NCBI RefSeq assembly: GCF_029542785.1 | Contig: NC_083372.1 | Location: forward strand, 62,001-126,000 | Origin: Malassezia japonica | Lineage: Eukaryota > Basidiomycota > Malasseziomycetes > Malasseziales > Malasseziaceae | Reading direction: 5' to 3' | Length of the DNA: 64,000 nucleotides | Shown here: piece by piece, positions 1 through 60,582 of the stretch | Layout of the letters: the number at the start of each line of letters is the position of its first letter | How positions within the stretch are numbered: position 1 is the stretch's first letter | Position numbers and translations under genes: made by a program | Notes under the pieces: generated by a model | What the model was told of the DNA's origin: nothing | Seen by the model: only the letters and a program-made list of their open reading frames with translations | The model's database searches: none

Positions 1-1381
1 GGCAGCGCGCCTCGGCGAGCGGCTTCCCGGCCAGACCAGCCGCTCGCCTGCACCCGAGGATCCAGGCCGACTGATATTCCAGCGCAATGCCATCCGTCCT
101 GCGCCACCGAACGCCTCCTTGCTGAGCTCCAAGTTTGGGTTGAACGATACGAGTCAGTCGCAGGCGCAAATCCACCTCGCGCGGTACGGTCGCGCGGGTG
201 CAGGCGAAAGCGACGCGAATGGCATCACTATCTCGCTCTACTTCCCAAACCAGACGAGTGTCGAGGCTACGTCGCCGCTCCCTGTGCGCATTCGGAAGGA
301 CGCCACGATGGAGGAGCTTATCGGCTACGGCCTCTTTTGCTATGTGGAAAGGCACGGCGAGCCGCCGCAACACCCCGATGCCGACGAGGAGGAGCTCGAC
401 ATCTATCTCGAGACCACCGCATGGTCCCTGCACATGGTCGAGGACGGCGAGGTGGACGAGGACTACCCAGCCATTGACCGCTCCCTGGTCGTCGGCCGCT
501 TTGGCGAAACGGAATTTGCGATTTGCCCAACGTCGCAGCCCCGACGTACGTATTTAATGCTCACCACAGATGCATGGCGGCGACCGGAAGAGCCGACATC
601 GGCGGCCGATGTCCCCAACACGTTTGCCATGCAACCCTCACGCGACCGGCCTAGCGAGTCGGAACCTGATACCCTGTCGCTGCAGATCATGGTCGTCCCT
701 ACGGCCATGGGTATGACGACCATCCGAGTCCCTCCCCGTGCGACTGCAGCCCAAGTACTTGCGATTGCATGCCGTCACTGCCTTTTGAGCGATCCCAGTG
801 GCTATGCGCTGCTTTACCGCGATGTCGACGAGGTGATTCCTTTGGACAGGTCCGTGCGTGACTTTTACGGCCGTACGGACCTGGTGCTCGTGGAGCGGAC
901 CACGCTCCCCCGTGCTGCGGAGGCGCCGGTGCCCTCTGCGCGACCCGCGTCGAGCATGCCCGAGCAGCCTAAGTACAAGACGGCGATGGACTTGATTTCT
1001 AACTACAAGGTACGTCATCTTACTGACGCAGGCCTATTCGGTCAGCCGGCGCCACCCCATCTCGGTTGGCCGCCATGAGCGTGTACTGACGATTGATGGC
1101 GACTGGATCCACATTATGTATGTTGCGCTGCTCATGACAGTCGTCCTGCCGAGAAGCGCATGTTCCACGCACGGTCCACGTCCTACCCCATTTCGGCCGT
1201 GCTGCAGTGCGAGCAGTATGTCCGGATGCCGAACCTATTCAAGATTGTTGCCTATCGTGAAAAAAACGCGCGATACGAAGCGCTACGACTTTGAGGCGGA
1301 CAACCGCCAGAAAGCAGGTGCGTCGCTCGACTAACCACAGAGGAAATTGTGGCCGAGATCAATCAGCTGCGGCGTCCCTAG
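1..1381 (+). CDS. AVO1: SIN1/AVO1-like TORC2 subunit (5' end outside window; frame break at A7)
   Basis: This is the C-terminal part of the stress-pathway/TORC2 scaffold Sin1 (Avo1), which links TORC2 to Ras and membrane lipids. The frame is open from base 2, so the start lies upstream of the window. Domains in order: a CRIM domain (about bases 200-540, 'ITISLYFP' to 'FAICPTSQ'), a Ras-binding-like domain (about 680-905) and a C-terminal PH domain. Joining the PH domain needs introns at 1010-1031, 1118-1140 and 1318-1340. Exon 3 reads FKIVAYREK in one frame, but the conserved KRYDFEADN that should follow is one frame away; the switch falls at a run of seven A at 1260-1266. Read literally, the protein stops early at 1292-1294. 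With one A fewer it ends EEIVAEINQLRRP at 1379-1381. Family assignment is secure. Whether the break is real, a sequencing error or recoded cannot be told here. Confidence 0.85.
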
Positions 1382-1476
1382 ATCGTGAGAGTTGTATTTC
1401 TACATATCAGCTAGCCATCGGCCTGCATGCCAGCGGGAAGATATACAGACTGGCGGCGTATCGTAGAAAGGGGCAT

Positions 1477-2140
1477 TTACTCGGCGTTGGCCTCCTCGGC
1501 CTCCTCCTCGCCTTCGTCGCCTTCGTCACCCTCACCCTGGAGAGCGCTCAAGTCCGGCATGCCACCGCCCATGCCACCGCCGCCCATCTGGGCCATGAGC
1601 TGCTGCATGTCGAGGCCGCCCATGCCACCGCCGCCCATGCCGCCGCCCATGCCGCCCATGTCCGGCATGCCGCCCATGCCGCCCATGTCCAGGTCGGGCT
1701 TCTCATCCTGCTCGTCCTGGTCGACCCACTTGTCAAAGTCGGTCTTGACGTTGTGCAGACGGACCTTGTCCTTGGTCAGACGAGGCCAGTACTCCTCATC
1801 GACCTTGGCCTTGCGCAGGACAAGGTAAATGCCCTTGGCCGTGTGCGACTTTTTGGTGTGCGCGGGCTCAATGTCCTCGAAAAAGTCGAGGTCAAAGAGG
1901 TACTTTTGGCCCTTGATACCCTTCGAGGCGTCGTCCTCGACGTCCGCCGAAAAGTGCAGGTGGCCCGGGTTAATTTCGAGCTTGGTCTTGTCACCCTCCT
2001 CGAGGTTGGGGACATTGATGGTCAACAGAACAACGTTCTGAGGTGTAAGCACATACTTCCAGCATTATACGTACCTTCTCAGCCTCAGTGGCAGAGCTGC
2101 GCTGCGCCCACCGGATTTCAGGAGCAGTAGGAGTCGACAT
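1477..2140 (-). CDS. SBA1: p23/Sba1-type Hsp90 co-chaperone
   Basis: This is a small CS-domain co-chaperone that binds the ATP-bound Hsp90 dimer and slows ATP turnover in the cytosol and nucleus. Two exons, 2140-2075 and 2037-1477, flank a 37-nt intron (2038-2074, gtacgt...ctcag) and give 208 aa. The first exon encodes MSTPTAPEIRWAQRSS, the usual start of the CS fold. It continues with the beta-sandwich (LLTINVPNL, LHFSADV, KGQKYLFDLDFF) and the WPRL-K-D core. The C-terminal tail is a Gly/Met-rich repeat (GGMGGMPDMGG and variants, about 1550-1690) followed by an acidic end; such tails are typical of p23 and are thought to carry intrinsic chaperone activity. It shares a 182-bp spacer with divergent NOP15, which contains two CACGTG hexamers. 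Confidence 0.95.
1545..1692 (-). repeat. GGM-rich coding repeat in p23 tail
   Basis: A degenerate short repeat of Gly-Gly-Met/Gly-Met-Pro codons encodes the low-complexity C-terminal tail of the p23 co-chaperone. It reads as imperfect copies of (gcc/g)ccgcccatg on the + strand. It is in frame with the CS domain, so it is coding sequence and not an intergenic microsatellite. Copy number could vary between strains. Confidence 0.75.
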
Positions 2141-2246
2141 GGTTGGAAATGAAGAGTGTCGGTTCTTGGGCCACGTCGGCTTAAAGAGGCCCCCGCACGC
2201 GCAGATCGAAGACTGTGGAACATGCGAGGATAGATCGCCTTAATTC

Positions 2247-2273
2247 CACGTGGGCCCATGCACCCACCACGTG
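2247..2273. promoter_or_regulatory. Two CACGTG hexamers in SBA1/NOP15 divergent promoter
   Basis: CACGTG occurs at 2247-2252 and 2268-2273 in the 182-bp spacer between the divergent p23 and NOP15 starts. This is the canonical E-box bound by Cbf1-type bHLH factors in fungi. The same hexamer recurs in several other short promoters of the window. Binding is inferred only. Confidence 0.45.
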
Positions 2274-2322
2274 CCGAGGAAATTTTCTGCCGCGTGCTGC
2301 AGCGTGCGGCTGAGTCTCCGCT

Positions 2323-3483: not shown

Positions 3484-3503
3484 CCGTAGATCCGGAAATG
3501 CGA

Positions 3504-6077
3504 CTATGTACTGATGAGCAAGGAGGACCCCACCGCGCCCGAGTTCATCAGGGCCGACTGGCCCGTCTTGATGCGCGTGCGCGGCGGCAGCTCGGTATCG
3601 TGGGGCACGAACGACGTGTCCGGCTCGGACGACATACCGGTGTGCAGGCCGAGGCCCGAGGCGCTCTGGTCCGGCGGCGCGAGGAACGTCGAGCCAGAAG
3701 GCATCATGGGCGTGTGTGCGGCGTTGCTAAACGCCGCGCCCTGCATCACCGGCGCAGGCGCCAGCGACACGTCCGGCGCAGGCGACCGCTCCTTTGCGTC
3801 GAGGACCAAGAACGTCTCGGCGCTCCATTCGTACCACACGCGGCGCTCGTCCGTGAGGCGCCACAGGTGCACCTCGAGCTCGCTGTTTGCCGGGAGGTAG
3901 AGCGGCTCGCGGAACGGAAAGTACATCGGGAACCAGCTCACCATATCCGTGCTTGCGCGCTCCGGATCGGGGTAGATGCTCAGGACGACGTTTCCAAAGA
4001 GGTGCGCCTCAAAGTAGCCTGCGAGGCCGTGGCACACGCCGGCGTGGGGGACCGTAAAGGTGTGCACAGACGTGCGCATGTTGTGGTTGTTGGTCTCGGG
4101 CAGGCCGCTTGGCGTGAGGACGAGGCCACTGGCGCTCATCGGGCCGTGTTCAAAGCGCCAGCACGGCTGGATCTTTTTCTCCGAGCCGTCCTGGGCCAGC
4201 ATGTTGATCGACTGCAGATGCACGACGTACGGCGAGTCAAACGTCGGCGCCGCGACGCTCGTGCCCATACCGATGCCAGAAGGAGAGTGTGCTTGGGCCA
4301 GCTGCGCACTTGCGATCGTCGCATGCAGCTTGGCCGCGGCGATCGGCGTAATGTACGGGACATAGGCGCTGGGAATCGAGATGCCGTTGGCTGTGTTAGC
4401 AAAAAAAGACGTACGTTTCAAAAAGCGCATCGCACCGTCGAGGCATTCCGGAGCGAGCTCATTATCGGCAAAGCTGCCCAGCAGCTCGCTCACGACGATA
4501 TCCACACGCTCTGCCTCGCTGTCTGGCACCGGAAGCGTGCGCATGTCGCCCTGGACGACCGCAACACGGTCCGTGCCCCACTCGTTCAGCTGGCGGTCGC
4601 ACAGCGAGATGCACGCGCCGGGGTTCTTTTCCAGCGCCGTGACGTGCACCGAGCGCGACGCCCGCTCGGCGGCAGCGAACGTGCGGCCGACCAGCGCGCC
4701 TTGGCCCGCGCCGACGACCCACACGCGCGTCACGGCGCCGGGCGCGCCGTGCTGCACGAGCGCCTGGAAGAGCGCCTCTTCGTACAGGGCATACTTGACC
4801 GGGTCACTCTCGAACACGTCATACGTCGACGCGCCGAGATCGTCGGCCATCGGCTGCAGCGGCGCCTGGAGATGGTCGCCGTAGCCGCGCGCGTAGCGCT
4901 CCATTGCATTCGGCGGCGGCGACGTGCGGACGAGGTGCCGGATGTACTGCAGATACGCCCCTGGCCCGCCGTTGGTGTGCTGCGGCGGGGGTGTGTGCGT
5001 CTCGCTGAGGACCACGAGCGGCGTGCGTGGCAGCAGCTGGCGCACAAGCCGCTGCGCCGACTTGGACAGCACTGGATAGCCTTTGGCATTCGCAAGGAAC
5101 GACGTCGAAGGGAGCCACATGAGCGACACCGGCTCGGCGCTCCAGCGCACCATGGAAGTCGTCGGGGGCAGCGGCATCGACAGATCAAGCGCGACGTGCA
5201 GCCGGGGGTGGTACTGGCAGAGCGTCTGGATCGTCTCCCACGTCTCCCATGCCCAGTTGTCGTTGGTGCGCAGATAGGCCGCGGCGGGCATCGCCGGCGC
5301 GCCGCTCGGCGTGCGTGTCGCCTGGCGCATGAGCATCGTCGTGAGGATGTGCGGCGAGCTCACCGGGAGGCGCACCGACACGCGCATCGTCGCGCCGGCC
5401 GCCGGAACGTCGCCGGCAATGCCGCTCAAGCAGGTGCGGATCGCCCGCGCATAGTCGGCAAGGTACTTGCGGCGGGCCGGATCGCTGCTCGGCGCAGGGA
5501 CCACGACGTGCGCTACACCGAGGTACGCCGCGTACGCCATCTCCTGGCGCAGCGCAAGCTCCGCATCGAGGCGCACGCCTTCGTCGGAGGAGTCGAGTTC
5601 GAGCCACTGGCTCAGGACCACGGTGAGGTCCTTGGTCTCGCTCGCCCTTGTCACGTTCAGCTCTGCACGCTGAAAGTGCGGGTGCGCGCGCCACTGGTCC
5701 GCCTCGCACCGCACGCGCGACTCGCTGCGCCGCAGCGCGGCTGGCGCGAGCGTCGCGCGGCTCGAGCTGCGGGGGAGCGTGTCTGTTGACGTGTCGGCGT
5801 CCTGCGGAATCAGGCACAGTCGGTCCCAGCGCTCGTGCCATTGCGCGTTGGCGAGCTCCATTACAATCCCGTCGTACCCGTCGCCAAGGGCCTGGGCACG
5901 GCACTTTTCCACCGGCGTGGACCGCGTCGTAGGCGGAGCTTCCTCTTCCTCTTCCTGGACCGTAGCTAGGGCCGGCGCAGGTACAGCCGGGCGCTGCAAG
6001 GCGCCTGTCGCAACAAACAACGCGACAGGGACGTGCGGCACATCAGCCGCGTCCGGCGCTCGCGCTTCGCTCGGCAT
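3504..6077 (-). CDS. HSL7: PRMT5/Hsl7/Skb1 type II protein arginine methyltransferase
   Basis: The gene encodes 849 aa after removal of one 24-nt intron (4391-4414). The enzyme makes symmetric dimethylarginine on histones and Sm/RNA-processing proteins; fungal homologues also act on Wee1-type kinases. Visible parts are an N-terminal TIM-barrel region, the SAM loop VVGAGQGALVG (about residues 449-460), the double-E loop SELLGSFADNE (about 528-538) and a C-terminal beta-barrel (LWRLTDERRVWYEWS). Splicing turns FLK-RTSFFANTAN-GIS into FLKPNGISIPS, the family consensus, which supports the intron. The open frame runs on to 6734, but residues upstream of MPSEARAP resemble no PRMT5 and overlap SPT2 antisense, so I start at 6077. 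A Ser/Pro-rich insertion in the N-terminal part makes it longer than fission yeast Skb1. Confidence 0.93.
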   Translation of the reverse strand: MPSEARAPDAADVPHVPVALFVATGALQRPAVPAPALATVQEEEEEAPPTTRSTPVEKCRAQALGDGYDGIVMELANAQWHERWDRLCLIPQDADTSTDTLPRSSSRATLAPAALRRSESRVRCEADQWRAHPHFQRAELNVTRASETKDLTVVLSQWLELDSSDEGVRLDAELALRQEMAYAAYLGVAHVVVPAPSSDPARRKYLADYARAIRTCLSGIAGDVPAAGATMRVSVRLPVSSPHILTTMLMRQATRTPSGAPAMPAAAYLRTNDNWAWETWETIQTLCQYHPRLHVALDLSMPLPPTTSMVRWSAEPVSLMWLPSTSFLANAKGYPVLSKSAQRLVRQLLPRTPLVVLSETHTPPPQHTNGGPGAYLQYIRHLVRTSPPPNAMERYARGYGDHLQAPLQPMADDLGASTYDVFESDPVKYALYEEALFQALVQHGAPGAVTRVWVVGAGQGALVGRTFAAAERASRSVHVTALEKNPGACISLCDRQLNEWGTDRVAVVQGDMRTLPVPDSEAERVDIVVSELLGSFADNELAPECLDGAMRFLKRTSFFANTANGISIPSAYVPYITPIAAAKLHATIASAQLAQAHSPSGIGMGTSVAAPTFDSPYVVHLQSINMLAQDGSEKKIQPCWRFEHGPMSASGLVLTPSGLPETNNHNMRTSVHTFTVPHAGVCHGLAGYFEAHLFGNVVLSIYPDPERASTDMVSWFPMYFPFREPLYLPANSELEVHLWRLTDERRVWYEWSAETFLVLDAKERSPAPDVSLAPAPVMQGAAFSNAAHTPMMPSGSTFLAPPDQSASGLGLHTGMSSEPDTSFVPHDTELPPRTRIKTGQSALMNSGAVGSSLLIST

Positions 6078-6147
6078 GGAGAATGCAAACACGACGCGTG
6101 TATGTTGGCGGCAAGGCAACAGCCCCTCATAGGCCAACTCCACAACC

Positions 6148-6981: not shown

Positions 6982-6990
6982 CACTATGTA

Positions 6991-7563: not shown

Positions 7564-7575
7564 CGTGATGGTCGC

Positions 7576-7638: not shown

Positions 7639-8962
7639 ATGTCGCGCTCGAACGTGATTGTGCTGTACGTCTCCGTGCTGACCCAGTGACAATGGCACAG
7701 GATACACCAAGATGGGCTTTGCCGGTAACTCGGAGCCGTCGTTCGTATTTCCGACGGCGATCGCTACGCCTTCGTCGAGCGGAAAGAGCACCGGCGCACG
7801 TCCGGCGGTGCCGACCAAGCCCGGCGGCCTAACGAACTCGTCGCTGGCCTCGAAGCGCGGCATCGAGGATCTCGACTTCCACATCGGCTACGAAGCGTAT
7901 GCCAACAGCAAGACGTACCAGGTCGACCAGCCGATCCGGCACGGCATCGTCGAGAACTGGGACCACATGGAGCGCTTCTGGGAGCAGTGCATCTTCAAGT
8001 ACCTGCGCGCTGAGCCGGAGGACAACTACTTTATGCTCACTGAGCCCCCGCTGAATCCCCCGGAGAACCGTGAGGCGACGGCCGAGATCATGTTTGAGTC
8101 GTTCAACATCAAGGGTCTGTACATTGCGGTGCAGGCCGTGCTCGCCCTCGCCGCGAGCTGGACCAGCAACAAGGTGAACGATCGCACGCTCACAGGTACG
8201 GTGATCGACAGCGGTGATGGTGTCACACACGTCATTCCCGTGGCCGAAGGATACGTGATTGGCAGTGCGATCAAGCACATTCCTCTCGCCGGCCGCGACA
8301 TCACCTACTTTGTGCAGCAGCTCCTGCGTGAGCGCGGCGAGTCGGCCAACATTCCGGCCGAGGACAGCCGCCGTGTCGCGGAAAAGATCAAGGAGGACTA
8401 CAGCTACGTGTGCCAAGACATTGTGCGCGAGTTCCGCCGCTTTGACGAGGACCCGTACAAGTACTTTGCACGGTACGACGGCGAGCACTCGGTCACCGGC
8501 CGCAACTACTCGGTGGACATCGGCTACGAGCGCTTCCTCGCGCCAGAGATCTTTTTCAACCCGGAAATTGCCTCGTCGGACTTCCTCACGCCGCTCCCCG
8601 AAGTGGTCGACACGGTGATCCAACAGAGCCCGATCGATGTGCGCCGTGGGCTGTACAAAAACATTGTCCTGTCGGGTGGCTCGACCATGTTCCAGCACTT
8701 TGGCCAGCGCCTCAAAAAGGACCTCAACTCGATCGTGCAGGAGCGCCTGCACGCCTCGGAGGCGGCCGGCGGCAACCTCGCGCGCTCGTCGGGCCTCGAT
8801 GTGAATGTCATCTCGCACAAGATGCAGCGCTATGCCGTCTGGTACGGTGGCTCGCTCCTCGGGTCGCTGCCCGACTTTTACTCGTTCTGCTATGACAAGA
8901 AGGATTACGAGGAGCATGGGCCGAGCATCGTTCGCAAGTTTAGCGTGTTTGGCGGCGTGTAG
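7639..8962 (+). CDS. ARP3: Actin-related protein 3 (Arp2/3 complex)
   Basis: Two exons (7639-7664, 7687-8962) joined across a 22-nt intron give 433 aa. The tiny first exon restores the actin-fold N-terminus: MSRSNVIVL then [14 protein letters not shown], the phosphate-1 loop. Arp3-specific landmarks include [42 protein letters not shown], the phosphate-2 region [14 protein letters not shown], and the C-terminal [21 protein letters not shown]. Arp3 pairs with Arp2 as the template for branched actin filaments at endocytic patches. Length and motifs match the family throughout. It converges on VPS15 with 8 bp between the stops. Confidence 0.97.
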
Positions 8963-11900: not shown

Positions 11901-13539
11901 GCGGCAGGATGTACTCGCTAAAGAGGCCGGTATTCCCTGGCGTCGTCGACTGCACGCACTCGAGCGTCGTAACGAGGTACCGCATCGCCAGCGCGCGGCA
12001 CACTGCGCTGCGGTCGCTCAGGAGTGCGACAAAGTACGGGAGCACACGATCGAGGCACGCCTCGTCCGAAAGCCAGCCGTACACGAGGTGCATCATGATC
12101 TCCATGGCATGGCACCGCGCCGAGGCACGCTGGCAGTTGCGCACATTGGCAAGTACCACGGAGAGCACAAGCAGTGCTTCGCCGTCCTTCTCTGCGCGTG
12201 CGCGGCGGGGCGCAGGGTCAGGTACTGGGACGTGTGGAAGGCATACACCGAGCGGCAGCTCGCCCTCGTCACGCAGCCTCGCGCCGGGCTCGCCGAGGAA
12301 CGGGAGCAGCGTCGCCCAGTCCTCGTACAAGCGCTCGATACGTTCGTCTGGCTCGACCATGCGCGCAAGGTGCGTCCTGCGAGTCTGCGCCTCGGCTTCG
12401 CTTTGGTCGGGGTGTGTCGGCGCGCCCTGGGCCGGCCGCTGCAGCTCGACGAGGTACAGGTGCAGGAAGCGCGAGAATGACAGAGGAAAGACGTGCTCGG
12501 ACGACTCGGAGAGCAGCGTAGCAAACGTGGGCCGATGCTCGTGGTCGACATGGACCATGCGGCGCACCAAATCGCGGATGCCGTCGTGCGGAATCTCGGC
12601 GAGCATCGCCTCGACATCGAACTCTCCCTCGCGGTACCGAAAGAGCTGCGAGAGGGTAAAGAGTGGCGCACCGTCGCGCCAGAGCTCTGCGAGGACGCAC
12701 CCCAAGGAAAACACGTCCATCGCCTCGGTGACGCTCCCCGACGGGCGCCCGAGGCCCAGGAGCTCAAGGTAGGGCTCGTGTGTCAAGAGATCCGACACGT
12801 TTTCGACGTCGGTCGCACTGCGGCTGTGCCCGCCCTCGCGCTCGACGCGCGTCGTGAGCTCGGCAAGCGAGTCGTAGAAGCGTTCCGGGGCAACGTAGCA
12901 TGTCCGCCGGCGGGCCGTATCAAAAAACAGCGAAAAGTCTGCTGGATCGTCCAGCGGAAGGTAGGTCGGCTTGAACGACGAGGCAAAGTCGGTAATGTAC
13001 ACAGACAGCGATCCGCTCACGAGCACATTTTCGCACTTGAGGTCGCCGTGGCGCACGTTGCGCTGCGACGACGCTTGCATCGCGTACAGAAGCTGGTAAC
13101 TCACCCACAGCTTCTCGATTTGCGTGAGGAATGGGCGCGTGCTGCGTCAGGTGCGCTACCTACCTGATCCGGTCGTAGAGGCTGCACATGAGCCACTGGC
13201 GCACGAGGTAGCCGGCCTCTTCGGTCTCGATCACCTCTTGGTAGGTCAGGACGTTTGGCACATCCTCCAGAGCCTCGCGTTCCACTGTATAAGCCATCAC
13301 ACGTACACCGCAAGCGCCGCACAAGGCCCCGGAGCCGCATCGAGGGGTCGGGCTTGATAAACGCCTTGACGACCAGCGGGCCGAGCGCGTGCTTCACCCG
13401 CGTCGCACGCAGGAAGCGTGACGAGCCAAGACTACATTAGTCGCACCACCCACCTGCACTCGTACTGCAGCTGGCTATCGAGCACCAGCTCGCCGGCGCC
13501 CGGCAGCCGGTGGCTCGAGCCGGACAGCGCATTCCCCAT
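8971..13539 (-). CDS. VPS15: Vps15-like regulatory kinase subunit of PI3K Vps34
   Basis: Four exons (13539-13454, 13431-13307, 13284-13164, 13141-8971) separated by three 22-nt introns encode 1500 aa. The protein starts MGNALSG, a canonical N-myristoylation signal expected in Vps15. The kinase-like domain follows, with RFLRATRVKHALGPLVVKAF, the HGDLKCENVL catalytic loop and DFAS in place of DFG. A HEAT-repeat solenoid spans about residues 380-800, then a disordered Ser/Pro linker, then a seven-blade WD40 propeller ending GTIRVWE. Vps15 anchors Vps34 to endosomes and pre-autophagosomal membranes and sets PI3P output. Exon joins are supported by continuous Vps15-like sequence (EREALEDVPNVL, SLYDRISTRPFLTQIEKLWVSYQLL). 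Confidence 0.95.
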
Positions 13540-13598: not shown

Positions 13599-14343
13599 CT
13601 ACTCAATGCGTACGTTGTCGATGCCGCCTGCCTTGCGGAGTCTGGGTGAGTGCTAGGGACGTACGCGCGCCGGATTTCGCCTGCCGTCTTTTGCCAGATA
13701 TTGAGGTGGCGGTCGCGCACCATGGCGTCGATATCGTCGCCGTGCTTATGCACGAGCTCGGCGAGCCACGCAAATTCGTTCGACGACGAGAAGCGCGACA
13801 CGGGCCGGTCCTCCTCTGCGAGCTTGGCGAGGGCTGTGTGAGAAAGAAGACGTACCTTCGACCGACTCGCCGTCCTTTGCGTGGAGGCGCGGGGGGAGCA
13901 TGACGAGGTTGGCGGGCTCGTCCTCATCCGCATTCATCGCGCTGCCCCACGGAGTCGCGTCCTCGTCCTTCTCGCCGTCCTCTTCGATAATATCCACGAC
14001 CTCGCCTTGCTCGTTGCGCACGATCCGCGCCATACCCTTGCGCGCCTTCGGGGCGGCGGCTTGCGGCTCCGCGCGCTTCACATTCGCATAGGGATCCTTG
14101 CGGTCGAGACCGCCGGACTGGGGGACCAGCGACGGGGCCAGGCCGAGCTTGGCATAGCTGCGTTAGTCACGCAACGTACTTTTGGCGGGGGGTTAGCGAC
14201 TTGTCCCACTGCTCGCGCATCACCTCGGGGCCCATGACGCTGGGGCCGCGGTGAATCCGTTTATTCTGTGCGCGCTTGGCGCTCTTGGTCGCGCCCGAGT
14301 ACTTCGACGAGCGCGACTTGCGCCTCTGCCTCGGATTCGCCAT
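13599..14343 (-). CDS. NOP16: Nop16-like 60S ribosome biogenesis protein
   Basis: Four exons (14343-14180, 14157-13856, 13833-13665, 13641-13599) and three introns of 22, 22 and 23 nt give 225 aa. The start MANPRQRRKSRSSKYSGATK is the family signature. It continues with DKSLTPRQNYAKLGLAPSL, an acidic middle, FAWLAELVHKHGDDIDAMVRDRHLNIWQKTAGEIRR, and the C-terminus ALRKAGGIDNVRIE, which appears only after removing the last intron. Nop16 associates with 66S pre-ribosomes in the nucleolus. A CACGTG lies 34 bp upstream of the start, inside the neighbour's stop region. NOP16, VPS15 and the coilin-like gene lie in tandem on this strand. Confidence 0.94.
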
Positions 14344-14375: not shown

Positions 14376-16290
14376 TCACGTGCTGCCAAAAACCGCCGCC
14401 TGCAAGGAACGGAGGCGGCGCAGCACCGAGCCGTTGGCTGTGGAGGCGGGCGGAGGGGGAAGCGGCTCAGGCGCGCCATAGTCCAGCTCGGCGGGGGGGT
14501 CGTCCGACGCAGGGGCGGAAGGAATGGACTGCCGCTGAAGGTCTTGGTCGACGGCTTGCTCGGCCGGCCGGCCAAACGAGAGGGGGAGCGCGGCGCGCAG
14601 GGGGTCGAGCGTATCGTCGCCGACCGCCATACTCTCGTCGGCCTCGGCTTCACGCCGCTTTTCTTGCTCCAGCGCATGGCGCACCTGGCGCTGCATCTCG
14701 CTGTAGGCTTGCGTAGCTTCGTCGGTCTCGACGGATTCGCTTTCGTCCCATTGCGCATTGTACCACGCCTTGCAGTCGGTGCTGCTGATGGTCATTCCAG
14801 GAGGAATTTCGTGCTGGGGACGCATCGAAGGCGGGGGGACACGCCGCGTCGTGGAAGTCGTCTGCGCAACAGCAGTTGGAGCTGCAGCGGGCTGCACAAG
14901 TGCAGGGGCCGCCGTAGACTGGTTCCGGCGCTTGCGGTGACCGACGGTCGTGCGCGCCAGCATGCGCTCGGCAATCTGCTCGAGCTTTGCGTCCTGCGGC
15001 TCCGATGCAATAGGGTCGGGGATCGGAACAGGCTCGGGCGCAGGGAGAATGTCGAGCGCGCCCCCGCCGGGTGGAAGCGTAACTTCTTGCGTATAGGGAA
15101 GGTCGTGCGGAGGCGGAAGGAGTTGGTCGGCTCCTGCACGTTCGCGCTCACGCCGCTTTTGGTTCTTGCGCTTTGTGCGTGCCTTGCCTTGGCCAGGAGG
15201 TACGTATTGGGGAGAAGAAGGGCGGGGCGATGCAAGAATCGCGTGCACTTCTTCGACGCTCGGGGCGTCGGAGTCGTCCGACGCATCCTGGTCTTTGAAG
15301 TAGGTATGTGCGTCAGGAGAGTGCGCATCCGAGTCTGAGTCCGAGTCGGAGCTGGAGGAAGATTCAGAGCTCGCACTAGAGCCAGAGCCAGAGCCAGAGC
15401 CAGAGTCCGAGTCCGAGTCCGAGTCCGAGTCGGAATCGGAATCGGAACTGGAGCTCGCACTGGAGTCCGAGTCCGAGTCCGAATTGGAGTCCGAGTTAGA
15501 GCTAGAGTCCGAGTCCGAATTCGAACTAGAATCCGAGCTAGAGACTGCGTCCGAGTCAGAGCCCGAATTGTCTTTTCCATCGTCCTCGTCGCTGTCCTCG
15601 TCGTTGTCTTTTTCCTCTTCGTCGTCGTCCTCTCCGTCGCCGTTCTCTTCCTCTCTGCCATCAACCTCATCCTTTTCGTCGTCGTCCTCTTCGTCATCAT
15701 CTTCATCTTCCTCGTCCTTATCGTCCTCATCTCCCAGCCCCACCGGCTGCCCAAACCAGCCCCCATCTGCTCCATCCATTTCCATCTCTCGCTTCTTCTC
15801 TTCAAAGGCACCCATAGCAGCCGCTATGCGGCCACTAGGCATCATTGGGAATGGAATATCAGGCACCACTCTCTCTTTCTTGCTTTCCTTCTTGCCTGGC
15901 GCACACTCTGTGCGGATGGCCAGCGCAATACGATTCGCCTCGGCCATGACATCATCCGACTCACGGCGCTGCCGCTTGCTCGGCCGCGTATCCTCGTCCG
16001 TGCGATAGGCAACTCTACATTAGCCATAATACGTACCTCACGGCCTCGCCGTCCTTGAGCAGCTCCGTGCCAAACTCGTCGAGCAGCTCGTACCCATCCA
16101 GATAGAGTGCCAAGCCGCTTTTTTCCACGTCGTCGAGCACCGGCGCCGGATAGTGGCGGCGTAGCGACGCTAGGATACGCCCCCGCACATCCTCGAGCGA
16201 CTCGTCGCCCGCGCTCACCGGCACGACAAACTGCGCAGCCGGCAATGGCGCCTGCGTGCTCACGCGCACACGCACGGTACTCCGCACCAT
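14376..16290 (-). CDS. Coilin-like acidic Ser/Asp-repeat nuclear protein
   Basis: Two exons (16290-16037, 16014-14376; 22-nt intron) encode 630 aa. Residues 1-90 resemble the coilin N-terminal ubiquitin-like domain: MVRSTVRVRV, then LALYLDGYELLDEFGTELLKDGEAVRV, matching coilin's GLYLEG...LVRDNDCLRVK pattern. The basic KRQRRE patch could be a nuclear signal. A long Asp/Glu then (Ser-Asp)n tract follows (about 15310-15760). Next come a basic RTKRKNQKRRERER block and a C-terminal region with DCKAWYNAQWDESESVETDE. Coilin scaffolds Cajal bodies and snRNP maturation. The N-terminal match and the SD-to-basic order argue for coilin, but I cannot see a clear C-terminal Tudor-like domain; a Nopp140-like or unrelated acidic protein is the alternative. 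Confidence 0.6.
15310..15580 (-). repeat. Ser-Asp/Ser-Asn/Ser-Gly coding repeat tract
   Basis: Near-perfect runs of gag-tcc / gag-tcg hexamers on the + strand read as (Ser-Asp)n, with Asn and Gly variants, in the coilin-like gene. The tract keeps the reading frame and is flanked by conserved-looking blocks. It is prone to length change and is a likely casein-kinase-2 target region (inference from composition). Confidence 0.8.
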
Positions 16291-16352: not shown

Positions 16353-17254
16353 ATGGCACGGGAGCCATCGGAGGCATGGATCTCCTCAATCGACGCGACG
16401 TATCGGCTGATTGAGGATGCTGATGTGCGCCGCAGCTACCCCCAGCTCGCAGCCAAGGTCGAGTCCGCGATCCGCGCGTGCGAATCGGCGCTCGACGACT
16501 ACGGGTACGTGGACGAGCTGACGCAGCCTCGAGCGATGTGCGCTCAGCTTCAATGGCGGCAAGGACTGTAGGTCGCGCGACTAACCCAGGCACGGTTCTT
16601 GCGCATATACTCGCAGCAGTAATGCGGCGGCGCACAAAGCACGCCGGCCTACCCCGCATGGCGGCACTGTACGTCGCTTGCGCGTCGCCCTTCCGCGAGG
16701 TCGACGAGTTTATTGCGTACGCAGCCAGCCCTACCACTGGCTATCATATGGACCTGTATTCGGTGCATGCACCGATGAAAGAGGCGCTCGCACGCTATCT
16801 GTCCGGGGCGCCAAGCGAGGCGCTCGGGAGCGGCAGCGGCGACGCGATGTCGCCCGTATCCGACCCGCCGGCGCAGCGTGACGTGCAAGCCATGTTCATT
16901 GGCGTGCGCGAGTCGGACCCGCACGGCTCGAAGATCGGCGTGCGCTCGCCATGCGACCCGGGATGGCCACCGATTATGCGTGTGCACCCAATCCTCGACT
17001 GGGACTATGCAGAGGTGTGGGCGTTTTTGCGGTGCCCGGTGCTCGGTACGCCCGCGGCGGCACTGCCCCAGTTTGTCGGCGGCGGCGGCGCGGACGGTGT
17101 GCCGTACTGCTCGTTGTACGATCTCGGTTATACCTCGCTGGGAAGCACGCACAATACGCACCCCAACCCATACCTCCGAGTGCAGGGGACCGCGACGTAT
17201 CGCCCTGCCTACTACCTCGAGGATGGCTCGTCGGAGCGCGCAGGTAGAGGGTGA
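16353..17254 (+). CDS. FAD1: FAD synthetase (FMN adenylyltransferase)
   Basis: Three exons (16353-16504, 16527-16567, 16590-17254) with two 22-nt introns encode 285 aa. Splicing creates LSFNGGKDCTVLAHILAAVM, the PAPS-reductase-fold PP-loop (SFNGGKD) that defines eukaryotic Fad1. Later landmarks are MKEALARYL, MFIGVRESDPHG, HPILDWDYAEVWAFLR, GVPYCSLYDLGYTSLGS, and the C-terminal FRPAY-type segment ending SERAGRG. The enzyme transfers AMP from ATP to FMN to make FAD. The middle exon is only 41 nt. The start codon is 62 bp from that of the divergent coilin-like gene. Convergent with XRN1 across 70 bp. Confidence 0.95.
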
Positions 17255-48717: not shown

Positions 48718-50492
48718 CTACATATGGCCGCGGGTGCGCTCGCGAGCGGCGAGCAGGCTGCCCTTTTGGAAGCGTACAGATAGCGAGTCGCTGGGTATCA
48801 GCGGTGCGCCAACTGGCGCATTAGACGTTTGCGCATGCTGTAAGTGCCGGTTAGAACGCACTCGCCGCGGCTGTGGTGGAGGCTCGTTGGGGGTGTGTCG
48901 ACGCGCAGGCGGCGAAGGATCACGCGGAGGATGGAACGAGACAGGGGGAATAGCACGAATACCAACAAACAGATCTGGCGACTCTTGGCGCAAAATGTAG
49001 GTGTGTGCACCAACAATCGCCTTGACCCAATCGCGGTGTGCGGCCGCATCGGGTTGTGTAACATACGCAACGGTGCGATCCGTGTCCAGGCTAGTCCCCT
49101 GGCGGCGCAAGGCAAACCCATAGGGCTTGGAAATCGCAGATCGGGCATGGTCAACGAGGTAGAGATCGACGTCAACCATGGAACATAAGTGTGTGTCATG
49201 TTTTCCCTGCGTTAGCAAGGTCACGTACCGATTCAGAGCTCGCGGTGAACAGGGCGTGTTCACGCAGCTCGAGCCATTTTTTGGTCCATTTCCGTGGTTC
49301 GCTCTGAATAGAGACCCATCCCCCCAGTGTAGCCGAGTAGGATGGTGTGTGCTCGGGGCGCAAGAGGGTGGGCCACTCGGTCGTCTTGACCAGGAAAAAG
49401 CCTGCGTCATGGCCACGCGAGCTGATCACATCACGGACACGTTCATACTCACGGACAGGCCGTTCTGCGTTAAAAAAGAGACGTACCAATTCCCAGGTCA
49501 GGAAGCACATCAAATACGGCCCAGCCATTCACACGGTCTGCACACGGCGCAAGGTGCATCTGAGACACGGTCGCTTGCAGCATCTGGCGGATCATGGCCT
49601 CTTCTGGGAGACTCACGACTGTGTATCGCTGCACATTCAGCACAAACACTCGGTACGACTGAGCTTGGGTGCGAAGACCCATGCGACCCATGGCGTGCGT
49701 AGCATCATGGACACCTTGGTGGCTCGGAGGCAAGCCCATGCCGACGCTCGGACCAGCAGGGTCATGTGCCATGTACGGCGGTGGCTGTGCACGGGGTGCC
49801 GCAGTGGGAGAAACATGGGACCGGTACTCCGCGCCTGTAATGGGCGTAGGATTGTGATGGATCGTGCTCGGCAAAATGGCAGGGATCGTAGAAGGAAGAG
49901 GTTCGGCAGGATGTTTATCGGAACGCGCTCGGTGGTACTTGTTTGTGGCGGAGCGCAACAGCTGCTTGGGCGCCAGCATCACCGTGCCAGAGCGCCTAAG
50001 GGGAAATGATTCAGAGCTGCTGCGTTTGTGTGCACTCATCATTTGCTGTTCGCGCCGTACCGTTTTTTCACGCGCGATCGGAGGAACGCGTGCAGCATTT
50101 GGGGGTTCGGACGCGTCGGCGCGATTCTCTACAGCCATCGATCCGTTTGGGAGTTTTCCTTCCAGAATCAGAAGCGCTCTGTCATTCTGCGCCCGCTTCT
50201 CTGCCTGGATGATGCGTTCGTGAGCAGCCTTGATAGAGAGCGCTTGCGCGCCGAGCGGAGCATCGTCATCGTCTAAACGCGTCTTGTCAGGCGGTGGAGG
50301 GGCCGGCTGAGAGTACGCGTCGTGGCCATAATTGTCCTCTTCTTCACTGGATGGGTCACCGTACGCGTCTTCATCGCGTTCATCATCGCTCCCCGTGTAT
50401 TCCATGTGGCCATGATCAGCTAGGAGGGGGGACGCCTGCACGCCAGCATGACCCTGTGTAGGTGGCACTGGTAATGCAGAGTGGGCATACAT
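48718..50492 (-). CDS. RA-PH tandem-domain adaptor (MRL/Grb7-like)
   Basis: Three exons (50492-49487, 49464-49229, 49206-48718; two 22-nt introns) encode 576 aa. The first 275 residues are disordered with a basic/Ser patch. A Ras-association domain spans about 280-355 (YRVFVLNVQRYTVVSLPEEAMIRQML ... WAVFDVLPDLGIERPVREYERVRDVI), completed across the first intron. A PH domain follows at once (about 362-480: LGGWVSIQSEPRKWTKKWLELREHALFTASSES ... DTHLCSMVDVDLYLVD ... KPYGFALRR ... AAAHRDWVKAI). The tail is Pro/Arg-rich. This RA-PH unit is the core of animal lamellipodin/RIAM and Grb7 proteins, so a Ras- or Rap-type GTPase plus phosphoinositide reader is likely. I know no named budding-yeast orthologue. 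Confidence 0.82.
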
Positions 50493-50725: not shown

Positions 50726-52088
50726 CTACAGATGATGCGGGAATTTTGCCTCGATTTCACGGCGTGCGGGGGCGTAAATGATGAACTGGGCCAAGACAAT
50801 GAAGTCGAGGATGATCGTGCCTGAGGTAAGAGCGCACAGACATACCCAAGCTACCCATAATCCAGCTAGCATTTTCAATGAGGTAACCGCGCGAATGGTC
50901 CTTGAGTACGATAGACTGGGTTAGAAAAAATTCACGCACCAGAACGTAAGTGACGTTGCCCCCGACCGCGAAAACGAAGAGCGCGAGACTCAGGCCTGCA
51001 CACTTGGTGTGGCAGTTTTTGAAAATCTGGGGGATGCGCGATGCAATGTACAACAAGGCGCTTAACCAGCCCAGCAGCTGAGCGTCCCAGCGCAGAACAA
51101 CTGGGTTCTCTTCCGGAGACTTTTTCAAGATAAGCGCAGTGTGGTCTGCCAGAATGGAGGACTCGTCCACAGAGTACCACGCAATCACACCCGTAACAAT
51201 GACAAAGCCAAGGGTGATCATATACTTGAACATAGCAAACTGGAGGGGGGTGAACTGGTCGAAGAAAACAGTCACTGACTCGCACACCTGCTCCCACGCC
51301 TTACGCAGGCGGCTCTGAGCAACTTCCACTTGACCGCCAACCAGTGGCGTAGTTTCAGTCGCAGTAGGGGCATCTCCAGTTGCGCCCGGCGAGATAAGAG
51401 CACCGCTTTGGTAGTACTTTCCATAGTACCACCACTGCCAGATAAGGAGTAGGTCGCAGACACAGTAATACGCGGCCAGGTTAATCTGCAGTGTCAGTAT
51501 GCACCGAAATTAAAACAACCTACCATTGTCCAGAGGACTCCCTGCAAGAGACCTCCGACCAGGTTGAATGCATCACCGCCTAACCAAATTAGGATGAACC
51601 AAATGGACAATCCATCGGTGGACTTCAAGACGTAGTTCTCGTGAATTTGACTGAAAACGGGAAGGGCCTGCGTAAAATGAAATGAAGGTCAATAAACGAT
51701 ACAGTGAGTTTAAATGTCACAGCAAAGTCAAGAGAAGGAATCCAAGTGTTAGGAACAGTCGCGGCACAATAGCGTTAGAAGCGGTCCAAAACAGTCTCGG
51801 CGAACAAATCCGCCTGACAACATGGCCCTACTCACGGTGTGTAGACAATTACCCAGCAAGCAATACTTCATGTTACAATCGGTCAGAGGTGACAACCAAT
51901 GGCGCGGTCAGCATCTAACGCAATTCGTCAGGAAATACGTACGAGACCCTAGATGATTAGCACCCGACTCAAATATATATATATATATATATAACGTACC
52001 ATCCCATCACAAAGGAGAGCCGGTCTGTCACCGGAATAGCCGCAAGGGCTGCTGGCGTTTCCGCCAAAAATTCCAGTATAGCAGGCAT
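50726..52088 (-). CDS. PQ-loop vacuolar cationic amino acid exporter (Ypq1/LAAT-like) with 13-nt microexon
   Basis: Five exons: 52088-52000, 51865-51853 (13 nt), 51667-51524, 51485-50846 and 50820-50726, giving 326 aa. Introns are 134, 185, 38 and 25 nt. Without the microexon the first and third exons are out of frame. With it, SFVMG-CIACW-ALPVFSQIHENYVLKSTDGLSIWF reads through, matching the CW and SxDGLS pattern of Ypq1-type proteins. Seven membrane segments are expected: PQ-loop 1 is degenerate (FSQ), PQ-loop 2 is intact (ASRIPQIFKNCHTKCAGLS). Family members export Lys/Arg/His from vacuole or lysosome. The introns are unusually long for this window, and the first holds an (AT)n tract. Confidence 0.85.
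51853..51865 (-). other. 13-nt microexon of PQ-loop gene
   Basis: The minus-strand exon tattgcttgctgg is flanked by an AG acceptor (...catgaag) and a gtaatt donor. It supplies the Cys-Ile-Ala-Cys-Trp bridge and the one-base phase change needed to join exon 1 (phase 2) to exon 3 (phase 0). The flanking introns are 134 and 185 nt, much longer than the window norm. The call rests on frame and on family similarity, not on transcripts. Confidence 0.7.
51973..51993. repeat. (AT)n microsatellite inside intron
   Basis: A run of about ten AT units sits just inside the donor of the first intron of the PQ-loop gene (minus strand). It is the only pure AT microsatellite I noticed in the window. Its position next to a gtacgt donor means length changes could affect splicing. 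Confidence 0.9.
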
Positions 52089-56478: not shown

Positions 56479-56619
56479 CGTGGATAGGAGGTGACGATCT
56501 GAACGCGCCTGTCCCTGCTTGACCAAAGCAACGGGCTCTATGTCCGCATCCAAATCCGGGCATGTATGATTACATAATCGTTGCACAGACCACCTGGACC
56601 CTGCCACCACAACGCCACT

Positions 56620-57389
56620 ATGCTCGCGATGCGGTTTTTGACAAGCGCGGCTGCACAGCAGATTGACCGGGATCTGATGTCGGAAGCCGGAGGGTTTAGC
56701 ATTGATCAGCTCATGGAGCTCGCCGGACTTTCGTGCGCAGAGGCTGTATTCCACAGCTACCCGCCTGCCCAACACAAGCGCATCTTGGTCGCCTGTGGCC
56801 CGGGCAACCAGGGCGGCGATGGTCTTGTAGCGGCGCGCCATCTGCACCACTTTGGGTACAGCCCTACAATCTGGTACCCCAAGGCAAAACAGGCCCCTCT
56901 ATTTGACGTATGTGGCTGAAGCTAATTCAGGGATTGGTTCAACAACTCCGTAATCTCTCTGTCCCATTCATTGACACGAATGCATTTGAGACGCAGGTAA
57001 GCAAGGAGACGGATGTCGTTCTCGACTCGATATTCGGGTTCTCTTTCCATGGTGAGCCGCGCGAGCCGTTCCGCTCTGCACTTGAAGCGATGATTCGCGC
57101 TCAAAAGGCACAGCGCGCTGTGCCGATTGTCTCGGTCGACATTCCATCTTCGTGGAACGTCGATGAAGGCCCATCTACATCCGAGCTGGCCTCTTCGTTC
57201 CAGCCCAATGTCCTTGTGTCACTCACCGCACCCAAAATGGGTGTCGCTTCGTTTGCAGGCGAGAAGCACTGGCTTGGCGGCCGCTTTGTTGACCCTACGG
57301 TATCAGCCAAATATGATTTACAGCTGCCTGCCTATCCTAATACGTCACAAGTAGTAGACATCACCGGAGCAAAACCGCTTGATGTGTAG
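56620..57389 (+). CDS. NNR1: NAD(P)H-hydrate epimerase (YjeF N-terminal domain)
   Basis: Two exons (56620-56907, 56931-57389; 23-nt intron with gtatgt donor and gctaattcag end) encode 248 aa. The single YjeF_N domain has AAAQQIDRDLMSEAGGFSIDQLMELAG, the nucleotide loop GPGNQGGDGLVAARHL, the joined PLFDGLVQQL, LDSIFGFSFHGEPREPF and VSVDIPSSWNVDEG. The enzyme interconverts R- and S-NAD(P)HX so that the dehydratase can repair both; animal NAXE is mitochondrial and cytosolic. A second in-frame ATG (MRFLTS) lies three codons in. Confidence 0.94.
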
Positions 57390-57441
57390 AACCCTTATCA
57401 TTAGAACCATTGTCTCTACAATAGATCGGCAAGTGAGATAT

Positions 57442-60400
57442 TTACTCAGTGTGCCCCGAAGGGGGACGGTACGGCGAGAGAGGGGCTGTGTCGTGCCGAG
57501 CATCCACCTGGGCACCAGTGCCAGCTTCATGGGGCGCAGGGAATGCCTCTGAGTAATTTTGTTCAGGTGAAAGGTTAATCCGCACTGGCGCGTCATCCGC
57601 CAGGTATGGTGTTTCGCTGAGATTGACGAGCGAGGCCCGGCTCTGGTTGTCCTCGTAATAATACGCGATCAAATCGGTCGCACTAGCCGTGGGCGGCAGA
57701 GGTGACACAGTAGGCCGAGACGGGATAAGGGAGCTGGGTATAGCTTGCAAAGCACCTTGTGCCGTAGCGTCCCTTTGACTTGGCATCAAAGGTAGATGCT
57801 GGCTTGAAGACTTGGGCGATGTCGAGTACAAATCAGACGCAAACTGTGGCCCATTGTCCGATCCCTGGCGCACGAATTGTGGCATAGGATACTCATAAGT
57901 GCCTTGGCGTAGGGGAGGGACATCGTCGCTCTTTGCAAGTGCGGAAAAGCCAGAATCATAACTCATCATACTGGAGGGGCGCTTGGCAAAGGGAGCCGGT
58001 GGCTGGAAGTCAAATTCATTGTCAGTATCATTAGGTGTCGTTGCATATTGACGGTGTATCATGGCCTGGTACGGGTCACTAACCATCTCATGATTCGCGT
58101 CACTGGATGGGTTGAACGGCAACGAGATGACAGAATCACGTTTGATGTCACCCAGCATGATATCATTTTCTTTCGAAGTGACACCTTCGCTGTCCAGTTC
58201 AGTTAGCACCGAGCTGCTTTCAACCGGTCCTTCGTAGATGTCTGACAGATTGTTCATCATGCTGGCGTGGACAATAGGAGTCAATAGGGGCTCGTGTAAG
58301 AAAGGGTGACCAAACTGGCGCATCAGCCTCTGCCGGTCGGCGTCGTGCACATGCACCTTAGTCCTGGCCAAGTCCATCGCCGACGGGGTGTACCACATGA
58401 ACTTGGGCTCAAGCTTAAAGTGGCAATAAACACGGAACGCGATTACGAATAGCACAGGCGGGATACAAGACACGGCCTCGACCCAGGATTGGTACAGCCC
58501 GACAACAATCGCAATAATGATTTGCATGCACCCAATCACCACGAGCAGGCGATTGATGACGATACTCCACAACCGACCGCCGGTTTCGCTTTTCGTCCTG
58601 TACACATAGAGGAACTGGTACTTGTATACGACCGATGCCATCCAAAATACAGCCGCAACAAATGCGACGACAAGCGGTGCAAGCGGTGCATAGACAGTGC
58701 CGATGGCGGCAAGGAATAGCAGCTCGGCATAGTACGTCCAGTACAAGAAGAAAGGCGGCCGTGCAATCTCGAAAAGCTCACGCGGCGTACGAAGTGCGGT
58801 GTGTTTGTGAATCCAGACCACAACGAGGCGGTAAATCTGTGCCAGCTCGAAGAGCTGCATATACCCTTTCAGGACAATCCACGTCATCCAGTACCCGGAC
58901 AAGCCCTGGAACCGCTTTGCGATACGTTCAAGCAGTGGCTTCCACAGCTCCGATAGAATTTGGGATGCCGCCTCGTGTCTGCGTACCTTGACGATAAGAA
59001 TCACTGCCACGTCCAAAATCACACTGATTAATGAAAAGATCAAAAAGTGTGTCAGGATAAGAAAGGCAAAATACTGGCCACAGAGCGCTGCATCGCGCGA
59101 CTCACGCGTACGCACGCCGCGGTACATTGCAATCTGCCGCATAATAATGGGCAGGCCCAATGCAAAGAGCATAGAGATAACGGGTGGGAGCAGACCTGAT
59201 ACAGCAGCAAACGACAGCTGGCTCCTAGCTTGCCAGTCGCGAAGGAATGTGAGATTATCGCGAAACGCGTTCATGTTTGCGATCAATGCAACGACAGCGA
59301 GGGGAATAAGGTTGACACAAAATAGAAGGGCGTAGTACACAAGACCCAGTGTTTTGTTCTTCCGGCGTTGCTCCCGCGACATGACAAGGTTCTGCCAAAG
59401 GATGTCGCGTGGAGATGAAGCAAGCTTGATCCGCATGCCTAGCGCCCGCTTTTTGCTTAGTGCCTTGGCCACCGTGTGTGCGTAGGCAATGGCAGCAAAG
59501 GAAGCAAACCCGTACGACATGGGCTCACCCTCGACCTTGTCCGAACGTGCCTCGCTGATATCCCGCTGAATGCTTGTGAGTTCACCTGTGTAGTAGTCGA
59601 TTGCATCCACTTTGGCGCCGCCCATGAGATTCTCCATGTGCCCGCCCACACGAACCAGCGGCCGTTTTGCGTGTTTGTGCCGCAGGACCTTGTTCAGGCA
59701 CGACTCTAGCCTCATGACTGTCTCTTTTTGCTCGTGCATAAGCTCAGGGAGATTGTTCATAGAGCGGCCGATCTGAACTTCCGAGAGAGGATAAGGGATG
59801 TGGGCGCTTGTGAGCGCTTCGCGCAGACCACTGTCACTTTGGTATTGGGGAGGGATATCTGTGATCATCAGGGCACGAGAGTAGTAGCTGCGCTGGTACT
59901 GGACCGAAGTAAAAAAATCTTGGCGCAGCGCAATCACCTTTCTGTAGTACAAAAAGATGAAGGTCAAGGCGATCAGTGTGGCTAGGTAGCTGAGGGTGAC
60001 GTGTGCCCACAAGCGCGGCCCGCTGACCTGGTTCATCGTGACATACAAGAGATAGTCCTGGTCATTTTGTTGGGAGGTTGTATTGCCCTGTGCATCTGGC
60101 TGCGTATTTGTCTTGACATGGGACAGGCTGTATGACAAGTCCACAGGGATCAACACCACACAAGTGAGCGCTGCAATAATAGTGAGCGACCACCGGACCA
60201 TGTGCAAAAAGTATAGGAATACAGTCGCATCAGTCCCGGCCGCCGCCTTAACATCTGGCATGCTCTTGCGCAGCACTGAAGGCAGCCATCGGAAAGTTGT
60301 CTTAGAAAACTCAGACTGCGCATAGCCTCGGCCCGCGTATTTCGTCTTGGGAGCATATAAATTCTGGGTTAGGCGCCCTACATACCTTGTGCCGTGGGCG

Positions 60401-60582
60401 CAAAAAGAAAAAGACACCAAGTGTCACCACGCCAAGTCCAAAGAAGATGGCAATGAACAAACCCACAGCTGAAGAAGAGCCGCGCTTGGACTGGGTCAGG
60501 GAGGGAAACGTACAATGCTATCCGACAGGTTATTGAGGATTGCACTAGACGCATTGGAGTCCTGTGTTTGTGGCGTTGCCAT
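57442..60582 (-). CDS. CSC1/OSCA-type calcium-permeable channel
   Basis: Three exons (60582-60514, 60490-60386, 60363-57442; introns 23 and 22 nt) encode 1031 aa. The first two exons supply the N-terminal membrane segment VGLFIAIFFGLGVVTLGVFLFL and the PRHKNLYAPKTKY join seen in the family. The core has the second TM region, the cytosolic RRM-like loop (MITDIPPQYQSDSGLREAL ... ASPRDILWQNLVMSREQRRKNK), and the channel TM bundle (VPPVISMLFALGLPIIMRQI, YFAFLILTHFLIFSLISVILD, YAELLFLAAIGTVYAPLAPLVV and others). A 280-residue disordered C-terminus follows. Family members are osmo- or mechanosensitive cation channels. Named fungal relatives are Csc1, Rsn1 and Phm7; I cannot choose among them. Confidence 0.93.

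Follow-up and report, generated by a model that had tools for sequence, protein, structure and literature searches.

Near-uniform 22- to 23-nucleotide introns of Malassezia japonica, probable U2-type spliceosomal introns at a common length floor

Introduction

The minimum length of a spliceosomal intron and the factors behind that minimum are open questions. The introns of Stentor coeruleus are 15 to 16 nucleotides (nt) long, near-uniform in length and, with the branch adenosine (A) at position 10 of 15, leave five bases after it in a U-rich branch region without a strong consensus (PMC9505925). Ultra-short introns are also found in Paramecium, with a median of 24 nt in P. bursaria (PMC12862383), and the 37 introns of Encephalitozoon cuniculi, supported by RNA sequencing in that species, span 22 to 76 nt with GT-AG ends and strict donor and branch motifs (PMC3629993). 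In Yarrowia lipolytica, Trichomonas and Giardia the branch motif stands at a fixed 2 to 4 nt from the AG and there is no 3' pyrimidine tract; introns measure about 269 nt in Yarrowia and 101 nt in Trichomonas if the columns of the source table are taken as means (PMC2483917). "Very short introns" have been stated for the genus Malassezia (PMC7426719), and the intron median of M. restricta is 30 nt (PMC9241646). For that species, the smallest intron allowed in annotation was set at 20 and at 15, and M. globosa has a mean intron of 76 to 79 nt, unlike the 22-nt mode that we describe here for M. japonica (PMC7426719, PMC9241646, PMC6473144, PMC4634964).

We analyzed a window of 64,000 nt of the nuclear genome of M. 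japonica (contig NC_083372.1, here C3, positions 62001-126000; the genome comprises 8.43 megabases [Mb] in nine contigs), in which a first-pass annotation had proposed about 43 introns, 33 of them 22 or 23 nt long. Judged from frame and homology, these 22- to 23-nt segments are real spliceosomal introns, and it is very probable that they are ordinary U2-type introns, reduced by shrinkage to a shared minimum of 22 nt. They resemble those of Stentor in their near-uniform length and in the five bases after the branch A, but the A stands at +17 rather than +10 and lies in a strong CTNAY motif. The first-pass view that they are among the shortest nuclear introns one could expect to be spliced fits their near-minimum length; with the 15 to 16 nt of Stentor, they are not the extreme. 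As in Yarrowia, Trichomonas and Giardia, the branch motif is anchored at a constant distance from the AG (usually 2 nt, as in Yarrowia) with no 3' pyrimidine tract, in introns far shorter than theirs. The lower limit of 22 nt, the GT-AG ends and the strict motifs are those of E. cuniculi, from which M. japonica differs in having, by extrapolation, about one such intron per gene and in that the few spliceosome components we looked at are intact. In the literature searched, from which the 2013 and 2017 genome papers on M. sympodialis were absent, we met no description for Malassezia of a mode at 22 nt, of a branch frame with A at +17 or of a donor with C at +4.

Results

Homology and reading frame support removal of the segments

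The introns had been said to be needed to join conserved protein segments, and 22 window introns lie within alignments to solved structures, Pfam domains or fungal homologues (five in TGL, four in XRN1, three each in NOP16 and VPS15, two each in SSL2, FAD1 and SHR3, and one in ARP3; Table 1). Twenty of these 22 are 22 or 23 nt long. Splicing of NOP16 across its three introns (22, 22 and 23 nt) yields a protein identical over 225 residues to the deposited M. japonica protein, so that all three are already removed in the public record. After splicing, XRN1 can be aligned gaplessly with solved Xrn1 (9e70) over residues 1-319, across introns of 31, 22, 22 and 22 nt, and the three VPS15 and two FAD synthase junctions fall inside locally gapless alignments to PIK3R4/VPS15 structures and to FAD synthase, respectively. 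Both SSL2/XPB introns are aligned through to Rad25, the first gaplessly and the second in a weakly conserved C-terminal tail. Pfam matches span introns of NOP16, SHR3 and ARP3, the ARP3 junction lying near the domain start. For the five introns of TGL, the comparison was with ten homologues, not all of them complete. Just downstream of the window, an alignment to solved DNA polymerase delta takes in five of the six POL3 introns (21 to 22 nt), with a two-residue gap beside one of the five. For the remaining window introns, the support is motif and frame.

In the frame test, all 24 motif candidates of 21 to 28 nt that had strong coding on both flanks and a length not divisible by three fit splicing. 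When weak flanks were included, 72 of 89 frame-testable candidates fit splicing, 6 fit retention and 11 fit neither.

Intron lengths begin abruptly at 22 nt

Intron statistics were drawn from a 194-kilobase (kb) sample made up of the window, a further 50 kb on its downstream side and loci retrieved without regard to introns; two loci overlap, and about 187 kb, or 2.2% of the genome, remains without duplicates. The pattern GTRNGT...CTNAY-N(0-2)-YAG occurs in the 194 kb 52 times at 22 nt, 20 times at 23 nt, 3 times at 21 nt and twice at 20 nt, compared to 0, 0, 0 and 2 times in the reversed sequence; after removal of duplicates, the counts are 50, 20, 2 and 2. Lengths thus begin abruptly at 22 nt, with a background of zero at 22 and 23 nt. 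The stricter GTACGT-N7-CTNAC-GCAG has 731 matches in the whole genome and none in the reversed control, and its 17 matches in the sample, where 16 to 17 are expected from the genome count, indicate that the sample density is representative. Scaling the 102 motif introns (20-28 nt) of the sample by 731/17 gives about 4,400 genome-wide, some of them by chance. We extrapolate that the genome holds about 4,000 such introns, or about one per gene, with about 4,000 genes per Malassezia species (PMC4634964).

The final window model contains 49 introns, 32 of them 22 or 23 nt, which bears out the first-pass count. A length bonus entered this model, and we regard several of its introns longer than 50 nt as doubtful; modelled introns of that size were mostly set aside by judgement, the Pmp3 gene excepted. 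A motif-blind model that used GT, AG and codon usage only, on the 114 kb of the window plus 50 kb, placed 24 of its 60 introns at 22-23 nt, with the other 36 scattered over 16-145 nt, and a length-blind, motif-aware model placed 40 of 76 at 22-23 nt. As had been claimed, most lengths are not multiples of three (93 of the 102 motif introns).

Anatomy of the intron

The inferred branch A, placed by its motif, falls at +17 in 63 of the 102 motif introns, at +18 in 15 and at +16 in 4, and it is followed by five bases in 86 and by six in 12. Both the proposed distance of about five bases between branch A and splice site and the wider reading of spliceosomal introns near minimum length, with a fixed inferred branch-acceptor distance, are supported by these counts. 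The search pattern limited the motif-to-YAG spacing to 0-3 nt, leaving out introns with a distant branch and favouring close spacing; the close-branch introns of this set are seen likewise in the motif-blind models. Added length falls mainly in the linker, which is about 7 nt in the 22-nt unit. The intron middle is 30% T and 27% C, and a pyrimidine content of 57% means that there is no polypyrimidine tract.

The branch motifs are CTAAC (28), CTGAC (23), CTTAC (15), CTCAC (15) and CTNAT (21), and the donors are GTACGT (55), GTAGGT (15), GTATGT (8), GTGCGT (7), GTACGC (6) and others. Together with GT-AG ends, this donor and branch consensus fits the U2-type (major) class. Position +4 of the donor is C in 70, G in 19, T in 11 and A in 2 of the 102; a recount with shorter flanks for duplicate removal gave 70, 20, 11 and 2. 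The statement that nearly all introns start with GTACGT or GTAGGT and end with CTNAC-[G/C]CAG was too strong, since among the 32 window introns of 22-23 nt, 27 have such starts and 21 have exactly such ends; those off the consensus vary mildly (CTNAT, TTAAC, ACAG, GTAG). The idea that there is almost no room between the bound donor and the branch site holds in part: with A at +17 and canonical pairing assumed, the stretch of the donor paired to U6 and the stretch of the branch paired to U2 would be about 5 bases apart. Longer introns occur as well. The Pmp3 gene (Pfam Pmp3; 62 codons; C3:152427-152932, locus L043) was modelled with four introns of 76, 50, 76 and 115 nt that, unlike most introns of the region, have mostly GTATGT donors and TGCTAAC or TACTAAC motifs, and one spliceosome presumably handles both the short and the longer introns.

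Splicing machinery

Changes in U2 and U2AF had been suspected, and neither was found. The U2 small nuclear RNA (snRNA) has an intact, canonical GUAGUA branch-binding segment, which rules out a change there, and loss of U2AF is ruled out by conserved U2AF35 and U2AF65, both matched to structures. The alignment of U2AF35 with the solved U2AF 23-kDa subunit is gapless over 174 residues, and the U2AF65 frame matches the RRM1-RRM2 and C-terminal domain structures of U2AF65, with a six-frame match below the NCBIfam cut-off. The ACAGAGA box of the U6 snRNA is intact, and a single Rfam family search of the genome sufficed to find U2, as one did for U6. A METTL16-family gene is present (142 bits), with an NPPF motif that we take to be catalytic and one stop in its frame, presumably an intron, and METTL16 loss is thus unsupported as a cause of the odd donor. 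CWC25 begins with MGAGDLN, compared to MGGGDLN in the solved homologue, so that the glycine plug is kept save for one Gly-to-Ala change, and tryptophans 12 and 24 are retained. Given that U2, U6, both U2AF subunits, CWC25 and the METTL16-family gene all look ordinary, the findings favour shrinkage to a floor over a reduced spliceosome.

Stentor likewise has the canonical U2 GUAGUA and U6 ACAGAGA segments and both U2AF1 and U2AF2, but its CWC25 is described as without the glycine plug, of which M. japonica keeps all but one of three glycines (PMC9505925). Neither a plug-less CWC25 nor a length of 15-16 nt (the floor here being 22 nt), the two marks of the Stentor type, is thus seen in M. japonica. 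In Saccharomycotina, nearly all changes at donor +4 switch A and U, and METTL16 loss accompanies +4 U (PMC10581693). The choice of +4 C lies outside those switches, and M. japonica does not belong to the donor class of that study that pairs +4 A with METTL16, given that a METTL16-family gene is present and yet, of 102 donors, 70 have C and 2 have A at +4.

The U1 snRNA was not found with Rfam RF00003 at the default threshold or at E<=10 over the whole genome, in a search that had no positive control, as none of 14 control genomes gave a match above the cut-off. Three patterns gave no U1 either. TACCT-N(10-30)-TCANGAAG occurs at 13 places (control, 18), of which 3 loci were scanned with Rfam and none was U1. 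ATACNTACCTG occurs at 17 places (control, 4), none with the canonical T; all 17 were scanned, none was U1, and several are donors read on the opposite strand. ACNTAC-N(11-41)-TCANGAAG occurs at 20 places (control, 23), and none of the 19 scanned matched U1. Locus L074, the only one of these 20 with both an upstream TATA and an Sm-like string, is an unproven U1 candidate. The exact string ATACTTACCTG was not found in the 8.43-Mb assembly. Fungal U1 can be very divergent, and for this reason, together with the family search lacking a positive control, we do not conclude that U1 is missing.

Introns of the same design in relatives

Public protein records suggest that other species carry introns at the same positions. 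At the third TGL position, the deposited M. furfur protein (P0006) continues past ...AEHI with a peptide compatible with a 22-nt GTACGT...CTNAC-N-CAG intron after which LKLNLTTN follows out of frame, a fit given by 0 of 1000 shuffles; the M. psittaci protein (P0002) ends four residues beyond this position, too short for the read-through test. At the third NOP16 position, M. cuniculi (P0183) has seven extra residues, equal to 21 nt and fitting a 21-nt intron, and the deposited or predicted proteins P0180 and P0181 fit retained introns of 22 and 23 nt. Tested by motif alone, four of seven read-through peptides fit, with shuffled tails fitting in 4-17% of cases for those four. Three of the seven peptides entered a joint test with the conserved downstream protein, and all three fit, each with 0 of 1000 shuffles. 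Introns so built are thus probably present throughout the genus, some of them overlooked by gene callers.

The window introns are collected in Table 1. Separately, a long serine- and acid-rich low-complexity stretch occupies window positions 15300-15730, within the minus-strand gene 14376-16290.

Table 1. Introns of the window. MF, motif and frame; models that contain the intron: B, motif-blind; L, length-blind; F, final.
Position	Strand	Length (nt)	Gene or remark	Evidence
546..569	+	24	taken to be Sin1/AVO1-like	MF; F; not in B or L
1010..1031	+	22		MF; B, L, F
1118..1140	+	23		MF; B, L, F
2038..2074	-	37	taken to be p23/Sba1-like	MF; F; L picked a 19-nt alternative
4391..4414	-	24		MF; L, F
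7665..7686	+	22	ARP3-like actin-related gene, presumably ARP3	Pfam Actin match (residues 3-426) spans junction at residue 9
13142..13163	-	22	VPS15	junction in locally gapless alignment to PIK3R4/VPS15 structures
13285..13306	-	22	VPS15	PIK3R4/VPS15 structure alignment
13432..13453	-	22	VPS15	PIK3R4/VPS15 structure alignment
13642..13664	-	23	NOP16	identity to deposited M. japonica NOP16
13834..13855	-	22	NOP16	Pfam match; identity to deposited NOP16
14158..14179	-	22	NOP16	Pfam match; identity to deposited NOP16
16015..16036	-	22		MF; L, F
16505..16526	+	22	FAD synthase	junction in locally gapless FAD synthase alignment
16568..16589	+	22	FAD synthase	FAD synthase alignment; joins SFNGGKDCTVLAH
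21262..21283	-	22	XRN1	gapless alignment to Xrn1 9e70
21309..21330	-	22	XRN1; branch TTAAC	gapless alignment to Xrn1 9e70
21388..21409	-	22	XRN1	gapless alignment to Xrn1 9e70
21452..21482	-	31	XRN1; CTGAC-TCTTTTAG, pyrimidines between branch and AG	alignment to Xrn1 9e70
22138..22159	+	22	TGL5-type patatin gene	Pfam and homologue alignment
22932..22954	+	23	TGL5-type gene	Pfam and homologue alignment
23160..23181	+	22	TGL5-type gene	homologue alignment; M. furfur protein fits 22-nt read-through
23210..23231	+	22	TGL5-type gene	homologue alignment
23432..23453	+	22	TGL5-type gene	homologue alignment
27832..27853	-	22		MF; F
28574..28595	+	22	SSL2/XPB	gapless Rad25 alignment across junction
30559..30581	+	23	SSL2/XPB	Rad25 alignment, weakly conserved C-terminal tail
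30877..30900	+	24		MF; L, F
33137..33159	-	23	SHR3	junction spanned by Pfam SHR3 domain
33385..33412	-	28	SHR3	Pfam SHR3 domain
35002..35026	+	25		MF; L, F; B ended 3 nt earlier
41599..41621	+	23	taken to be BRR6/BRL1-like	MF; B, L, F
42144..42165	+	22		MF; B, L, F
42378..42399	+	22		MF; B, L, F
49207..49228	-	22	weak gene model	MF; F
49465..49486	-	22	weak gene model; branch TTAAC	F
50821..50845	-	25		MF; L, F
50916..50939	-	24		MF; F; not in L
51486..51523	-	38		MF; B, L, F
56908..56930	+	23	weak gene model	B, L, F
60364..60385	-	22		MF; F; L fused it with 60491..60513
60491..60513	-	23		MF; F; L fused it with 60364..60385

Discussion

We consider that the short introns of M. japonica are ordinary U2-type introns at a shared minimum. 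In sequence, each unit opens with GTACGT, GTAGGT or a similar donor, followed by some 7 nt of linker, the CTNAY motif with its A usually at +17, and an acceptor that usually leaves five bases after the A. U2 would pair with the branch and U6 with the donor in the usual way, and the floor could represent the shortest RNA able to seat the U6-donor helix (about nt 1-6) beside the U2-branch helix (about nt 12-18), with about 5 linking nt. The acceptor may be the first AG after the branch, in which case, we propose, these introns would not need tract-dependent recognition by U2AF, and U2AF would be retained for the longer introns of the same genome. The five bases after the branch in both Stentor and M. 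japonica, with the A at +10 in one and +17 in the other, suggest a 3' spacing that is a shared limit and a 5' spacing set by lineage-specific assembly, although this is a guess from two lineages.

Several points weigh against this interpretation. Splicing and branch sites are inferred from sequence and motif, and 17 of the 89 frame-testable candidates misfit, all 17 having weak coding flanks. The read-through peptides P0178 and P0187 fit no motif intron of 20-28 nt, and one of the seven was too short. Shrinkage to a floor leaves the +4 C preference unexplained, and two family runs and three patterns did not find U1, from which its absence is not concluded.

Other explanations can be weighed against the same data. 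That the apparent introns are chance motifs or sequencing indels is almost certainly wrong, given that the zero background, the frame test and homology refute it and that nothing was found in its favour. We are also doubtful that the segments are often retained, with their frame-shifting length regulating genes through decay of the unspliced mRNA. If retained, 43 of the 48 introns modelled at 21-28 nt would bring in a premature stop, and 24 of these 48, which come from the length-bonus model, lie in the first fifth of the coding sequence, as do 17 of 40 in the length-blind model; however, any intron whose length is not a multiple of three would behave alike, and the strong signals and the density in housekeeping genes suggest constitutive removal. 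The intron unit is highly similar between introns outside the 7-nt linker, which could mean that many were recently inserted as ready-made 22-nt units and did not shrink from longer ones. Judged from read-through in public proteins, though, M. furfur, M. cuniculi and the sources of P0180 and P0181 seem to carry 21-23-nt introns at matching positions; at least the shared TGL and NOP16 positions are therefore not recent, and we give recent insertion little credence.

Two further proposals accept the introns as real and concern how they would be recognized. With 17 nt from donor start to branch A, a length that U1 and U2 might be unable to share, assembly might depart from the textbook order, U1 being released or bypassed before stable U2 binding. 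This is unlikely. U1 escaped two Rfam family runs and three pattern searches whereas U2 and U6 were each found by one family search; still, a U1 that has diverged could be present without being detected, and the U1 of Stentor, whose introns are as short as 15 nt, carries the canonical ACUUACCU segment (PMC9505925). Alternatively, about one 22-nt intron per gene would be spliced via a changed early recognition of the donor, either by a U1 whose 5' end is altered to match GUACGU or by a U1 used only briefly because it could not share the 17 nt with U2. This proposal, which arises because donors favour +4 C and avoid +4 A while the METTL16-family gene and a canonical U6 are kept, seems to us improbable.

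In summary, M. japonica combines ordinary-looking splicing factors with an estimated few thousand introns at one sharp floor, which would make the minimum donor-branch and branch-AG distances readable and testable. Given that its CWC25 keeps the plug but for one Gly-to-Ala change, our findings argue against loss of the plug, as in Stentor, being a prerequisite of very short introns, at any rate for loops as short as 17 nt. In practical terms, the gene catalogues of the skin genus Malassezia may contain truncated or padded proteins.

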